From a virus: a stretch of DNA of 20,202 nt. The position numbers and the translations under genes are program-made. The stretch lies in IMG/VR virus record IMGVR_UViG_3300031977_001791, positions 1 through 20,202 of that record, one strand, 5' to 3'. Under the pieces are notes generated by a model. The model did not search any database. It was given only the letters and a program-made list of their open reading frames with translations, and was not told the DNA's origin. Shown piece by piece: positions 5,419 to 19,160 of this stretch (positions are counted from its first letter, which is position 1; each line of letters begins with the position of its first letter).

Positions 5419-5594
5419 TACAGCTTCTCCTCTAATAGTTTAGCCATTGCATCAGTGATTGCTTCAGCTAAGTGTTCATCTTTTCCACATACAAAAGTGT
5501 ATTCAGTAGATATACCAACAAGTTTAATTTGAATAACGTGTCCATTACTCACCTTGTACACATCTACTTTCTCAATATAAGTTTGGTCTTTCAT
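5418..5594 (-). CDS. Small hypothetical protein
   Basis: This 58-residue protein starts at ATG 5594. SD GGAGG lies about 6-10 bases upstream, and the ATG overlaps the thyX stop as TAATG; both argue against the longer frame opening at 5618. It has an alternating hydrophobic N-terminal half (beta strands) and an amphipathic C-terminal helix. I recognise no family. It is coupled to thyX upstream and to the 124-residue gene downstream. Confidence 0.6.
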   Translation of the reverse strand: MKDQTYIEKVDVYKVSNGHVIQIKLVGISTEYTFVCGKDEHLAEAITDAMAKLLEEKL

Positions 5595-6241
5595 TATCTT
5601 TCCTCCAGTGCTTTCCACGAGATAGGGAACTTAGGCTCTACCTCCCTCTTTAACAACTCTGCAAAATCTTTAGCCTCAACCTGCGCCCCATCTCCACTGC
5701 GTAAACTATACACATGAAAGAAGGCTAGTAGATTACCAGACCATATAAAGTTCACCATCATGCTCTGTGGGAGTAACATACGTGCCATTTCAGGTGCTAC
5801 TCCGCTCTCTAAGAAGTTTCTATAATCTTCTAGGGAGTCCTCAATAATAACCTTATAGCTCTTTTGTAAATGGTTGTTAAAAGGGTGGGCACCTGCACTT
5901 CCCTGCTTTATAGACTTATCAGGACGTTCACGCCACTCTGTCACGTCATAGAACTCTGGTTCACTGTCTATGTAGCGTCTGCTTTCCTCATTCCATGTAA
6001 GACCTGCTTGGTGTTTCATGAGCTGTCGTGCTAAGAACAGTGGCACTTTACATTTAAGTTGAATGAAGTTGTGACGGAATGGTGTGTCGTGTCTGTGTTT
6101 AGCTAAATACTTAATCAGCTTTTCATCTTTCAGGTCTAGATCCTGCACTTCCCTAGCGAATGATACTCTAGCGGAGTTGACGACACTGAGGTCGCCTCCT
6201 GCACTGTTCACCAATTCTACTGATTGCTTTACTAATTTCAT
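5594..6241 (-). CDS. thyX: Flavin-dependent thymidylate synthase ThyX
   Basis: This 215-residue protein matches the family's usual 210-250. ThyX makes dTMP from dUMP with methylene-tetrahydrofolate, FAD and NADPH, acting as a cytoplasmic tetramer. R73-Q74, N84-E85, S87-x-R89-Y90 and the late R154 (M-A-R, LLP) and L-R181 with A-Q-x-E match the substrate- and FAD-binding positions of Thermotoga ThyX (Q75, S88, R90, R147, R174). The signature R-H-R-x7-S is altered: K76-H77-Q78 replaces R-H-R, and the gap to Ser is eight residues. I recall K-H-Q forms in other marine phages. The start at 6241 has SD GGAGG and overlaps the MazG-like stop (ATGA). Together these two genes supply thymidine nucleotides and clear other NTPs during replication. 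Confidence 0.93.
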   Translation of the reverse strand: MKLVKQSVELVNSAGGDLSVVNSARVSFAREVQDLDLKDEKLIKYLAKHRHDTPFRHNFIQLKCKVPLFLARQLMKHQAGLTWNEESRRYIDSEPEFYDVTEWRERPDKSIKQGSAGAHPFNNHLQKSYKVIIEDSLEDYRNFLESGVAPEMARMLLPQSMMVNFIWSGNLLAFFHVYSLRSGDGAQVEAKDFAELLKREVEPKFPISWKALEER

Positions 6242-13953: not shown

Positions 13954-14334
13954 TTAAAATAATTCTTCTGGCAGTTCAGCTAAGAAGCTACTACTTCCTA
14001 GCATATCATCTATTGCGTATAGTACGCTCTTATACAAAAAGAATGAGCTCTTTCTTCCAAGTTTCCATTCAACAAATGTGTTGTAGCTAACACCACTTAG
14101 ATCAAACACTTTCTTCTTTTTATCCTTAGGTAGCATGCTATAACGCTCTAATAGATATTCTAGTGCGTTATCGGGTATACCACTATACCCTAACATCGCT
14201 AACACCTTTAAAGCGTCATCCGTCTTAGGGTACGCTCTCCTCCAGTTGTCAATAGTTGACACAGGAATACCAGTAGCATTCGTTACATCTTTATAACGAA
14301 ACCCTGATTTTTTAATCAACTCGTTAAATGTCAT
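13954..14334 (-). CDS. Putative transcription regulator with two HTH-like repeats
   Basis: This 126-residue protein has G22-I-P-V-S-T-I-D-N-W31 and again G81-V-S-Y-N-T-F-V-E-W90, both with the spacing G-(I/V)-x3-T-x3-W of a helix-turn-helix core, 59 residues apart. The first resembles XRE/Cro-type domains that follow with a basic Arg-Arg. No protease or ligand domain is present. A protein with two recognition helices could bind a palindromic operator as one chain, and a palindromic site lies about 90 bases downstream of its stop (13844-13860). It probably regulates the early-to-late switch, or is a host-directed regulator. The start overlaps the membrane-protein stop as ATGA. Confidence 0.65.
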   Translation of the reverse strand: MTFNELIKKSGFRYKDVTNATGIPVSTIDNWRRAYPKTDDALKVLAMLGYSGIPDNALEYLLERYSMLPKDKKKKVFDLSGVSYNTFVEWKLGRKSSFFLYKSVLYAIDDMLGSSSFLAELPEELF

Positions 14335-15610: not shown

Positions 15611-15874
15611 TTATAGCTCGATTAATTGCTCGAAACGATAACCTTTTTGTAATTCTTTAATTTTAAACAGATCTAGATTATCACCCTCTAACGCTTCGAC
15701 AGCCTTCAGATGATTTTCATACGCATCTAGTGAGTAATCATACGCAGTTGTTTTTTGTTTAGAATTATATCTATTTCCTAAACCATCAAAACCAACGAGA
15801 AATGCCGTTATCGACTCCCCCTTTGTATCTGTAGCCTGATTGAAGCGTGTTCTAAATTCTTTTTTATATAGCAT
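15611..15874 (-). CDS. Hypothetical protein, first gene of the leftward arm
   Basis: This 87-residue basic-to-neutral protein starts at ATG 15874 with SD AGGAAA. The N-terminus is rich in Lys, Arg and Phe (Y-K-K-E-F-R-T-R-F-N), followed by a strand-rich part and an acidic C-terminal helix. I recognise no family. It is the first gene downstream of the leftward promoter at 15936-15964, so it is probably among the first proteins made after infection. Confidence 0.6.
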   Translation of the reverse strand: MLYKKEFRTRFNQATDTKGESITAFLVGFDGLGNRYNSKQKTTAYDYSLDAYENHLKAVEALEGDNLDLFKIKELQKGYRFEQLIEL

Positions 15875-15894
15875 AATAATATTTCCTATTAGAT

Positions 15895-16003
15895 GACCAG
15901 TCAGGGCTTATTCCCTACACTGCTTTGATGTGTTTATAATAGTGATATTTACTTGATAATACAAGTCCGACCAGTGAGATATTTTAGTGGTCGTACCAGT
16001 GAC
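15895..16003. repeat. ACCAGT repeats around the leftward promoter
   Basis: GACCAGT occurs at 15895-15901 and 15969-15975, and ACCAGT at 15995-16000. An inverted TGGTC lies at 15988-15992, forming GACCA...TGGTC with the second copy. The copies flank the promoter at 15936-15964, as repressor or activator half-sites would. Confidence 0.4.
15936..15964 (-). promoter_or_regulatory. Leftward early promoter (sigma70 type)
   Basis: On the minus strand, TTGTAT (15959-15964) and TATTAT (15936-15941) are 17 bases apart, 60-90 bases upstream of the first leftward gene. The inverted repeat ACTTG-N6-CAAGT (15951-15966) covers the -35 box and could be an operator. It is the best candidate promoter for the whole leftward arm. 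Confidence 0.55.
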
Positions 16004-16130
16004 TATTTAGTACCTTTATATATGCGTGTGTGCGTAGCAATAACTATGCCAACTATTCAGTACTGCTTAGCTGTATAACTGTATAGGGTAATGGAAGTAT
16101 ATGACAGTATAGGGTGCATCACTCACTCTC

Positions 16131-16242
16131 ACTCTTAGCCTTCTAGACTTCCAGATGTATAGACGTCTAGATGTATAGCCTTCTAGCCTTCTAGGTGTCT
16201 AGACTTCCAGACTTCTAGACGTATAGCCGTTTAGACGTCTAA
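16131..16242. repeat. Tandem array of degenerate 8-bp repeats (13-14 units)
   Basis: From 16139 to 16242 the sequence is thirteen uninterrupted octamers, for example CCTTCTAG, ACTTCCAG, ATGTATAG, ACGTCTAG, GTGTCTAG. A fourteenth, ACTCTTAG, precedes at 16131. In the 13 strict units position 4 is T and position 7 is A in all, position 8 is G in 12, position 6 is T in 11 and position 2 is C in 10. Position 3 is always T or G. The recurring TAG closes all three plus-strand frames, so this is not coding. The unit length and conserved core suggest a protein-binding array, either a replication origin, a regulatory site or a packaging-related site. Confidence 0.85.
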
Positions 16243-16300
16243 ATAAACGCATAGAGGTAGGGGGAGGGGGATTGTCTAGTGTGATTTATGTAGGTAGGCA

Positions 16301-16344
16301 CTCAGATTTGCAAGAGGAGGTTTTCTAAAACCTCTCAGATTTGC
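16301..16344. repeat. Palindrome between 11-bp direct repeats
   Basis: GAGGTTTT and AAAACCTC (16317-16324 and 16327-16334) form a near-perfect hairpin. It lies between two copies of CTCAGATTTGC (16301-16311, 16334-16344), the second sharing one base with the hairpin. Each copy is followed by a related AGAGG/AGAAGG stretch. There is no T-tract, so it is probably not a terminator; a binding site or recombination remnant is possible. Confidence 0.5.
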
Positions 16345-16486
16345 TAGAAGGTAAATTTCGCTTTTATTGGTGAAAAACCCTAATAATTATCCTAATAAGC
16401 CACCCCTAAATCTAACGCACAAGTGCATGATTTCTAAAGGTAAATTATAAAAAAGAAATTATTTTAGAAAAACCTAGTAAAAGGTA

Positions 16487-16515
16487 TTGACTTTTTCAAT
16501 TAAATATGTTATAAT
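16487..16515 (+). promoter_or_regulatory. Strong rightward sigma70-type promoter
   Basis: TTGACT (16487-16492), a 17-base spacer and a perfect TATAAT (16510-16515) make this the best promoter in the window. Transcription would start near 16522, run through a leader of about 135 bases and enter endonuclease VII, terminase, lysozyme and portal. The predicted start coincides with the ACTTCTA motif, so a protein bound there would block it. Confidence 0.8.
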
Positions 16516-16521
16516 CAAGCA

Positions 16522-16545
16522 ACTTCTAAGGAGTGCTTCCTAGAA
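16522..16545. promoter_or_regulatory. Operator-like inverted repeat at the rightward start
   Basis: TTCTA (16524-16528) and TAGAA (16541-16545) are inverted arms around AGGAGTGCTTCC. The first part, ACTTCTAAGGAGTGCTTC, repeats the motif at 13853-13870. It directly overlaps the predicted start of transcription, the usual place for a repressor site. A further hairpin (AGGAG/CTCCT, about 16577-16595) follows in the leader. Confidence 0.45.
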
Positions 16546-16657
16546 TTAATAGCTTTTTATTAAGAAGTATTATTCAGGAGGAGGAGACACTCCTAATTCC
16601 TCTCCTTAGCAATTAAATGTTAGTTGCCCACAATATGCCTGTTAAACAGAGAACATT

Positions 16658-17056
16658 ATGTCAGAAGAAAAAGTATGCACAAAGTGTGGAGAGTCTAAGT
16701 CTACATTAGAGTTCCATAAAAACTATAAGAACAATGACGGTTTACACTACCATTGTAAAAAGTGTCGTAAGAATGAGTCGTTAAAGCAGTACGATATGAC
16801 ACTATCTGATTATGACAAGATGTTAGAAAAGCAAGGTGGTAGGTGTAAGATATGTTCAACAGATACCCCTCGTGGTCAAAGTACAGCGGGTCGTTTTTAT
16901 GTTGACCATAACCATGAGACAGGTGAGGTTAGAGGTTTGTTGTGCAATGACTGTAATACAGGTATTGGTTTATTAAAGGACAGCCCTTTGATTTTAAGCA
17001 AGGCTATAGAATATTTAATGACTAATGGACATTACGGTGACAGTCATGACTTCTGA
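16658..17056 (+). CDS. Recombination endonuclease VII-like HNH nuclease
   Basis: This 132-residue protein has an N-terminal zinc finger (C7-x-x-C10 ... C33-x-x-C36) and then the endonuclease VII domain with C63-x-x-C66, Y-V-D83-H84-N85-H86 and G-L-L-C96-N-D-C99-N100. D83 and N100 match the catalytic D40 and N62 of T4 endonuclease VII. Such enzymes cut Holliday junctions and branched DNA before packaging, and here the gene is the first of the packaging operon, just before TerS. The SD is poor (only AGAGAAC upstream), so translation may be weak or controlled by the structured leader. Confidence 0.88.
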   Translation: MSEEKVCTKCGESKSTLEFHKNYKNNDGLHYHCKKCRKNESLKQYDMTLSDYDKMLEKQGGRCKICSTDTPRGQSTAGRFYVDHNHETGEVRGLLCNDCNTGIGLLKDSPLILSKAIEYLMTNGHYGDSHDF

Positions 17057-17444
17057 AGTAGAAAAGCCTAGAAAAAGAGGCAGACCTCGTAAAGAGGATA
17101 TCGTAGCTAAGACACCTAACAAGGGCAAAAGACCTGTTGGCAGACCCAAAGGGGATGCGGCAATCATTAATGAATATAAAGCAAGAATGCTTGCTAGCCC
17201 AAAAAGTAAGAAGGTGTTAGAAAGCATTTTTAATGCTGCTCTTGATGACGAACATAAACACCAAGCCAGTGCATGGAAGCTTGTAATGGATAGGATTTTA
17301 CCTGTTGCAGCATTTGAGAAGGATGTTGCAGGTAGTAGTGGTAGGAGTGCTATACAGATTAACATTACAGGTGTTGGTGAGACAAAGATAGTGTCCTCTG
17401 ATGATGATAATAATGTGATAGATGCAGACTATGAAGAAAAATAA
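17046..17444 (+). CDS. Probable terminase small subunit (TerS) with AT-hook-like motifs
   Basis: This protein has 132 residues from ATG 17046, chosen for GGTGA at 17036-17040 with a five-base spacer; the alternative ATG at 17025 has no SD. The basic N-terminus carries K-R11-G-R-P14 and V-G32-R-P-K, both AT-hook-like minor-groove binders. The middle is helical (A-A-L-D-D-E-H-K-H-Q-A-S-A-W-K-L), a segment I recall from small subunits in marine podoviruses, and the C-terminus is acidic. TerS recognises phage DNA and loads TerL. The assignment rests on position before TerL plus this pattern. The genes on both sides overlap it. Confidence 0.65.
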   Translation: MTSEVEKPRKRGRPRKEDIVAKTPNKGKRPVGRPKGDAAIINEYKARMLASPKSKKVLESIFNAALDDEHKHQASAWKLVMDRILPVAAFEKDVAGSSGRSAIQINITGVGETKIVSSDDDNNVIDADYEEK

Positions 17445-17898
17445 AGTATTGCACGGTATGGCAGCTATCAGGGCTATTGAGGCTAAAGAAGGAAAGTTGT
17501 CTCCTGTTGAGCGTTATGTTGCGTTAAAAGAAGGGTATGTTGATGGTGAATACCTAGACCATAAAGGTATTCCTACGAGGGGTGTTGGTCAGACTGGTAA
17601 GTTTAAATGTATGCCCTACAAAGAAGCCTTCGCTATATTAGAGAAAGAATGCGCTAAGAAGTTTATTCCTGCATATCCTTTTATGTCTGAGAAGATGCAA
17701 TGTGTCATTATGTCTGCGTTCTATCGTGGGGATATACAGCAGTCTCCTAAGTTTAGACGTTTGTTTAACGAGCATAGGTATGAGGATGCGGCTAAGGAGT
17801 TTCTTAACCACAAAGAGTATTTAGCTAATAGTACACCTTCTCAAATTAAAAAAAGAATAAAAGAGGTGGCTGACGCTATTGTGGAGCATATCTCTTGA
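17422..17898 (+). CDS. T4-type lysozyme (endolysin)
   Basis: This 158-residue muramidase-like protein has E37, D46 and T52 at the same spacing as the catalytic E11, D20 and T26 of T4 lysozyme, within E-G-Y-V-D-G-E-Y-L-D-H-K-G and T-R-G-V-G-Q-T-G. A C-terminal helical part (F-Y-R-G-D, then S-P-K-F-R-R-L-F) completes the fold. It degrades the host cell wall at lysis; there is no signal peptide, so a holin is needed. The start is uncertain: ATG 17422 or 17431, neither with a clear SD, so it is probably coupled to TerS, which it overlaps. Its place between TerS and TerL is unusual. Confidence 0.85.
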   Translation: MQTMKKNKVLHGMAAIRAIEAKEGKLSPVERYVALKEGYVDGEYLDHKGIPTRGVGQTGKFKCMPYKEAFAILEKECAKKFIPAYPFMSEKMQCVIMSAFYRGDIQQSPKFRRLFNEHRYEDAAKEFLNHKEYLANSTPSQIKKRIKEVADAIVEHIS

Positions 17899-19160
17899 CA
17901 CAGTTGAACGTAGAGCTATTGAAATGGCAGCAGTCTGTCTTTAATGATGATACACGTTTTAAGGTGGTAGCGGCAGGAAGACGTTGTGGTAAGAGTAGGC
18001 TTGCGGCATGGACAATGATTATTCGTGCGCTACAAGCAGAGAAGTGTACAGTGTTTTATGTTGCGCCTACACAAGGACAAGCTAGAGATATTATGTGGGG
18101 ATTGCTAGAAGAGCTAGCTTTCCCCATTTTAACAGGTAAGCACGTTAACAACATGGAGATGAAGCTAGTGAATGGCTCACGTATATGTTTAAAGGGTGCT
18201 GATAGACCTGACACGATGCGTGGTGTGTCTCTTGAATATCTTGTGATGGATGAATATGCAGATATGAAACAGCAGGTGTGGGAAGAAATTCTGCGCCCTG
18301 CTCTTGCAGATAGAAAGGGTGATGCCCTGTTCATTGGAACCCCCAAAGGACGTAACCACTTCTATGATTTATTTGTATATGCAGACAAAACTGAAGACGA
18401 TAAGAGTTACAAAGCGTGGCACTTTACATCCTATGACAACGAAAAGTTAGACCCAGAAGAAATCAACCTAGCTAAACAATCTATGTCTTCTTATGCGTTC
18501 CGTCAAGAATTCCTAGCGTCCTTTGAAGCATTAGGATCTGAAATATTTAAAGAAGAATGGATACAGTTTGACGAGGAAGAACCTAGCACTGGTGATTATT
18601 ACATAGCAGTAGATTTAGCAGGCTTTATAGACAACAGCTCTACAGGTAAAAAGAACAAAAGATTAGATAACACAGCGATTAGTGTTGTTAAGGTTAACGA
18701 GCATGGGTGGTACGTTAAAGAAGTTATTTATGGTCGATGGACGTTGGACAAAACAGCTGAAAAAATATTTAATGCCGTTGAACGCTATAGACCTATTAGT
18801 GTTGGCATTGAGCGTGGTATTTCTAAACAGGCTGTTATGTCTCCCTTAATGGACTTGATGAAGCAGCGTAGCCGTTACTTTAGAATTGAAGAGCTTACCC
18901 ACGGCAATCAGAAAAAAGTCGATAGGATTGTTTGGGCGCTACAAGGTAGATTTGAGAATGGACGTGTCACATTGAACAAAGGCGAGTGGAACGGTGAGTT
19001 CTTAGACCAACTATTTCAGTTCCCTAATCACTTAGTACACGATGACTTAATAGACTCTTTAGCCTACATCGACCAACTAGCGGTTGTGTCCTACAATACA
19101 GACTTACTGGACATGATAGACAACGAATATGAACCTATGGACATTACAGCAGGATATTAA
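17895..19160 (+). CDS. Terminase large subunit (TerL)
   Basis: This 421-residue packaging motor has Walker A A27-G-R-R-C-G-K33-S34, Walker B L-V-M-D119-E120, motif III F-I-G-T-P-K-G (147-152) and a C-terminal RNase H-like nuclease with D240 (Y-I-A-V-D), E306 (G-I-E-R-G) and D384/D387 (H-D-D-L-I-D). It uses ATP to pump DNA through the portal and cuts concatemers. The start is TTG 17895, overlapping the lysozyme stop as TTGA, with GGAG nine bases upstream; no ATG precedes Walker A. T7 gp19 is longer (586), and this size is nearer the P22/terminase-6 type. Confidence 0.95.
   Translation: MTQLNVELLKWQQSVFNDDTRFKVVAAGRRCGKSRLAAWTMIIRALQAEKCTVFYVAPTQGQARDIMWGLLEELAFPILTGKHVNNMEMKLVNGSRICLKGADRPDTMRGVSLEYLVMDEYADMKQQVWEEILRPALADRKGDALFIGTPKGRNHFYDLFVYADKTEDDKSYKAWHFTSYDNEKLDPEEINLAKQSMSSYAFRQEFLASFEALGSEIFKEEWIQFDEEEPSTGDYYIAVDLAGFIDNSSTGKKNKRLDNTAISVVKVNEHGWYVKEVIYGRWTLDKTAEKIFNAVERYRPISVGIERGISKQAVMSPLMDLMKQRSRYFRIEELTHGNQKKVDRIVWALQGRFENGRVTLNKGEWNGEFLDQLFQFPNHLVHDDLIDSLAYIDQLAVVSYNTDLLDMIDNEYEPMDITAGY

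Follow-up and report, generated by a model that had tools for sequence, protein, structure and literature searches.

A 13-unit met-box array in a phage genome as a candidate sink for the host repressor MetJ

In structures of the repressor MetJ, the dimers sit side by side every 8 bp, with the DNA wrapped. MetJ operators are built of tandem 8-bp met boxes (PMC4239095), for which a matrix with thresholds has been derived from 832 half-boxes (PMC3228920). The protein is limited to the Enterobacterales, Pasteurellales, Vibrionales, Aeromonadales, and Alteromonadales (PMC3228920, PMC4239095). By destroying SAM, certain phages upregulate the met regulon of the host (PMC7877911); derepression of met genes by phages is thus already known. 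The paper on the MetJ regulon touches prophage only in passing (PMC3228920), and searchable open-access papers contained no report of phage met boxes, with subscription papers lying outside the search. The components are known, and the use of met-box arrays by phages appears to be new as far as the searchable open-access literature goes.

The DNA analyzed here, referred to as the window, is a viral sequence of 20,202 nucleotides (IMG/VR record IMGVR_UViG_3300031977_001791, positions 1 to 20,202). Its noncoding island between the divergent gene arms harbors 13 gapless 8-bp octamers at positions 16137-16240, all in the single phase AGnnnTnn. The features of the island and its surroundings are as follows.

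15614..15874, minus strand: first gene of the leftward arm, 87 aa, no assigned function; its start is 262 bp off the array
15875..16657, no strand: noncoding island between the divergent arms, containing the array (from the ORF list and relatives)
16137..16240, no strand: met-box array of 13 contiguous boxes (published metbox matrix and E. coli operator PWM)
16400..16549, no strand: A+T-rich stretch, G+C 0.24-0.28, including the rightward promoter
16487..16515, plus strand: sigma-70-like promoter TTGACT-17-TATAAT with TG before the -10 element, 11/12 match, for the terS arm
16658..17056, plus strand: Endonuclease VII family gene, first of the rightward arm; its start is 417 bp off the array
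17049..17444, plus strand: presumed small terminase gene, preceding TerL and conserved in relatives
17895..19160, plus strand: large terminase (TerL), used as the query for finding relatives

At positions 5594-6241, the window also encodes a ThyX-like, flavin-dependent thymidylate synthase; this enzyme belongs to one-carbon metabolism and draws on the methylene-THF pool also used by MetF.

The octamers follow each other in the order AGCCTTCT AGACTTCC AGATGTAT AGACGTCT AGATGTAT AGCCTTCT AGCCTTCT AGGTGTCT AGACTTCC AGACTTCT AGACGTAT AGCCGTTT AGACGTCT. Their consensus, AGACGTCT, is near-palindromic; A1, G2, and T6 are present in 13/13 units, and the variation is confined to positions 3, 4, 5, 7, and 8. 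The first-pass annotation of this DNA had described the repeats in the phase NNNTNNAG, which places them at 16139-16242, and had added a diverged fourteenth unit upstream; the latter fails as a met box. TRF called a period-8 array at 16136-16220, and the whole 20.2-kb window holds no second array of such octamers. The best 6-unit score was 47.7 bits at the array and 4.3 elsewhere in the window, and 60 Markov-shuffled versions of the window yielded no more than 16.5 bits. When the octamer columns were permuted in 5000 trials, the real score was matched in 0.02% of them.

For scoring with the published matrix, the single-box threshold was set to one quarter of the consensus score (3.145) and the site threshold to the consensus score itself (12.58). 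Every one of the 13 boxes exceeded the single-box threshold, with scores of 5.5-12.6 each, and the site total amounted to 104.4 bits. On the same scale, the E. coli metA, metB/J, metC, metE/R, metF, metK, and metN operators reach 15-31 with 2-4 boxes. Shuffled sequence, which the earlier annotation had named as a possible source of equally long phased arrays, did not produce them: in 200 shuffles scored with the met-box matrix, the longest run was 4 boxes and the best total 22.9, compared with 13 boxes and 104.4. The array of octamers is thus confirmed as real, as first described. Among the possible single substitutions, 36% push a box under the threshold; nevertheless, 13/13 boxes pass, which fits maintenance by selection and not recent slippage, in agreement with the first reading of the preserved phase.

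A PWM derived from E. coli operators only scored the array at +96.5 bits in its actual phase, and the remaining seven phases came out at -27 to -157. Several boxes of the window also occur unchanged in E. coli operators, namely AGATGTAT (metB/J) and AGACGTCT (metN), and AGCCATCC, a box of the E. coli metK operator, occurs in the arrays of other phages. We conclude that the octamers are, judged from their sequence, almost certainly MetJ sites. The 20.2-kb phage record contains no MetJ gene; hence, the ligand would be the host's MetJ, which very probably occupies the boxes during infection. The suggestion that a spacing of 8 bp would fit a protein that wraps DNA or forms filaments agrees well with MetJ, whose dimers bind side by side at this spacing.

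Pattern matching by itself is less informative. When viral contigs were searched with a loose 5-unit pattern, AGNNNTNN, most of the matches listed were simple repeats, and a 3-unit pattern run against genome contigs picked up period-8 repeats in numerous bacteria that lack MetJ. Such a pattern match is therefore unspecific, and it is the matrix score together with the degeneracy of the units that discriminates. Looser repeats of this kind, found in many viruses and in bacteria lacking MetJ, would speak for a fortuitous resemblance to met boxes, with the octamers binding another protein such as a phage-encoded regulator or TerS; a small HTH-like gene at 13954-14334 of the window, with a weak HTH_23 match, would provide one candidate. 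We regard this explanation as very improbable, because an independently published matrix assigns 104 bits to the array and because the hosts of array-bearing phages, described below, track the range of MetJ almost exactly.

BLAST searches covering 50,697 phage records revealed that such arrays are not restricted to the window. The window array matched 60 phage records; when the query array was taken from Vibrio phage Pontus or from Aeromonas phage AhSzq-1, the matches numbered 74 and 72, respectively. A reversed array used as a control had zero matches among the phage records, and a plasmid search with the array yielded a single, chance-like match in Corynebacterium. Similar noncoding arrays are present in T5-like phages (Demerecviridae) of Vibrio, Aeromonas, and Providencia, in jumbo phages of Enterobacterales (genera Asteriusvirus, Eneladusvirus, and Mimasvirus), and in Pseudoalteromonas phage PH1; Thalassavirus, Shenzhenvirus, Jesfedecavirus, and phage D164 are among the array bearers. 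The initial remark that no such array was known from T7-like phages has to be revised, since phiKT and KPV811, Autographiviridae of Escherichia and Klebsiella, carry arrays, albeit shorter ones than the window's. Every array checked passes the published matrix. The passing boxes number 6-37, stand mostly in a single phase, and comprise diverse units. The numbers of passing boxes are given below.

Pontus: 16
AhSzq-1: 28
PBECO4: 16
Sharanji: 14
GAP32: 13
SNUABM_12: 14
JSF10: 16
phiKT: 9
KPV811: 6
PH1: 33, over three stretches
Viral contig L173: 37

The array of contig L173 (L173:7257-7560) is the longest and most uniform one found; nearly all of its 37 boxes read AGATGTCY, and it lies beside a terminator-like repeat.

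Eight large proteins of the window had no match in PH1, which indicates that the PH1 arrays arose separately. The TerL and the polymerase of the window are less than 60% identical to those of catalogued phages in all matches. The recorded hosts of array phages comprise Vibrio, Aeromonas, Providencia, E. coli, Salmonella, Erwinia, Serratia, Cronobacter, Pectobacterium, Klebsiella, and Pseudoalteromonas. All recorded hosts but one belong to MetJ-bearing orders, the exception being Xanthomonas, the host given for phage XbC2; this phage is a Mimasvirus, and its congeners CBB and GAP32 infect Enterobacterales. Phages of Pseudomonas, Acinetobacter, or Gram-positive bacteria numbered zero in these tallies, which are raw counts that carry no base rate of hosts. 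The polymerase relatives of the window phage are phages of Vibrio, Klebsiella, and Citrobacter, and its own host presumably belongs to a MetJ-bearing order of the Gammaproteobacteria.

The position of the arrays bears on their function. One alternative is that the array, once occupied by MetJ-SAM, governs a phage promoter in the island and lets the phage read the SAM state of its host. The location between divergent arms would suit such local control, the array facing gene starts at distances of 262 and 417 bp, as would the PH1 array, which lies 197 bp upstream of a gene. Host metboxes, however, are found on average ~75 bp from the start codon (PMC3228920), and the E. coli operators manage with two to four boxes. 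A promoter scan of the window island, the overall outcome of which was near shuffle expectation, showed no promoter-like site overlapping the array; the strongest site, at 16487-16515, starts 246 bp to the right of it. As no promoter or near gene start overlaps or adjoins the boxes, the window array does not qualify as an operator of an adjacent promoter. In the tabulated phages, ~90-1800 bp separate the array from the closest gene start that faces it, and the arrays of AhSzq-1 and JSF10 are located between two gene 3' ends according to the deposited annotation, which may lack small genes. Since most arrays are distant from gene starts and some lie between convergent genes, they are not ordinary operators. 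We therefore consider local control unlikely. The distance from gene starts and the missing overlap with a promoter argue instead for a role set by the number of sites alone, and we lean, with some reserve, toward titration rather than local regulation as the purpose of the array.

We then compared the island with those of relatives, located through a match to the presumed small terminase gene, which itself matched no PHROG and hit only AT-hook, weakly, in Pfam. The nearest relatives covering the island, L001, L002, and L004, have no met-box array. The TerL proteins of L001 and L002 are 95-96% identical (amino acids) to that of the window; the L004 island contains nothing comparable to the array. 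Relatives whose TerS is 64-76% identical are likewise devoid of it. The array is thus dispensable in the lineage of the window phage, and since the closest relatives keep terS and not the array, it is neither a conserved pac site nor a conserved origin. The proposal of a pac site for TerS was rejected on these grounds.

An origin with very short iterons, the reading preferred in the first-pass annotation, was rejected as well, the repeats not being conserved at this place in L001, L002, and L004. It would draw on the noncoding nature of the island, on the A+T-rich stretch nearby as an unwinding element, and on DnaA boxes that occupy the array's place in relatives. The A+T-rich stretch does exist; it houses, however, the near-consensus sigma-70 promoter, which is enough to explain its composition. 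Moreover, the octamers are met boxes, close relatives of the same layout lack them, and the phage encodes its own primase-helicase and polymerase. An origin is thus very unlikely. A period-8 signal in related phages had been named as the touchstone for the first reading. In close relatives the signal is lost or replaced, and in many unrelated phages it is present independently, a combination that refutes a conserved origin and not the array.

At the place of the array, the islands of L001 and L002 contain 11 perfect and 2 relaxed DnaA boxes (TTATCCACA). In the island before terS of another relative (L013:4208-4434), 3 perfect and 3 relaxed DnaA boxes were found, and the DnaA-box motif is enriched in the L012 island. 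Site arrays for different proteins thus appear to come and go in the island. We take this turnover as support for the reading of the whole island as a sponge; it is not decisive, because DnaA boxes could also mean replication. The DnaA boxes of L001 and L002 (L001:621-906 and L002:4556-4841) are irregularly spaced and may represent a DnaA sink or an origin. A further island before terS, at L027:4190-4560, carries an array in which AACACAAG, a CTTGTGTTA-like motif, is present in 9 copies.

A role in DNA entry could be indicated by the location of several arrays, which lie close to genome ends or within the terminal repeat of the T5 type. A MetJ-coated stretch might then serve structurally, as a stop or dock during DNA entry, as an insulator, or as protection of the genome end. 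The arrays of CBB, SNUABM_12, XbC2, Pontus, KPV811, and PGT2 lie near the ends of their records, and the T5-like array appears to lie within the region that matches the T5 injection stop signal, by DnaA boxes and a LexA-like site. An abundance of repeats and DnaA boxes has been described for that signal (PMC13250531). T5 itself, however, has no array according to the published matrix, the PH1 arrays are situated mid-genome, and the record ends are arbitrary in several phages. A structural role is hence improbable.

The T5-like phages share a conserved cluster of 1-2 DnaA boxes and, ~30 bp after them, a LexA-like site, CTGTWWN4WWACAG. This cluster starts roughly 50-115 bp from the met-box array and was found at the following positions.

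L042:704-799: DnaA/LexA-like cluster
L303:2635-2731: DnaA/LexA-like cluster
L307:2761-2807: DnaA/LexA-like cluster
L043:5259-5305: DnaA/LexA-like cluster
L170:4877-4972: DnaA/LexA-like cluster

In Pontus, a ATTTGCACCT-like motif recurs about nine times in the same noncoding region as the array (L042:1-460).

As the window array far exceeds the E. coli operators in length (13 boxes versus two to four in each), has no tie to a promoter, and multiplies with the genome, a sink for MetJ is the most likely explanation. A regulator sink had been the third alternative in the earlier annotation and is now the favored reading, with MetJ as the regulator. With moderate confidence, and from sequence evidence, we propose that the array is a SAM-dependent MetJ sink that would derepress the methionine and SAM synthesis of the host. 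MetJ dimers, together with the corepressor SAM, would load cooperatively onto the array, one per 8 bp, and wrap the DNA. As the phage genomes multiply, the copies of the array would draw MetJ-SAM off the host met operators, and the level of free repressor would fall. The derepressed met regulon could then feed phage growth through methionine, SAM, and one-carbon synthesis. Our literature search found no infection transcriptomes with raised met genes and no paper giving the number of MetJ molecules per cell. Asteriusvirus phage Sharanji, the recorded host of which is MG1655, bears a 14-box array, which makes the idea testable in E. coli K-12.

More tentatively, and with slightly less than even confidence, we suggest that many unrelated lytic phages have evolved, independently of each other, DNA sponges titrating a host metabolic repressor, that is, MetJ, with DnaA as the counterpart at the relatives' island. 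If the sponge reading is true, phages possess a protein-free means of taking over host metabolism and replication control, and DNA sites alone would rewire the methionine and SAM metabolism of the host. The trick would have emerged among T5-like, jumbo, and T7-like phages, and the arrays, which escape gene-based annotation, would predict the host range of uncultured phages to the level of the MetJ-bearing orders.

Compared with known systems, the window array most closely resembles the E. coli met operators. Both consist of head-to-tail 8-bp boxes with the consensus AGACGTCT and similar degenerate positions, and some boxes are identical; the window array differs in having 13 boxes instead of 2-4, in being phage-borne, in lying off a promoter, and in adjoining no met gene. 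With the arrays of other phages it shares the long one-phase runs of 8-bp boxes, the diverse units, and the noncoding location. Their positions are different, however, and PH1 shares none of the eight large window proteins. A further parallel is datA, a DnaA titration locus. Like loci of the datA type and the DnaA boxes in the terminal repeat of T5-like phages, the window array comprises clustered sites that possibly lower the amount of a free host protein; it differs from datA-type loci in the protein concerned, in being phage-borne, and in its regular 8-bp spacing. Finally, T3 SAMase and Svi3-3 share with the proposed sink an expected outcome, namely that the met regulon escapes repression by MetJ-SAM (PMC7877911). 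These are enzymes that remove the corepressor, whereas the window array would be DNA that takes up the repressor itself.
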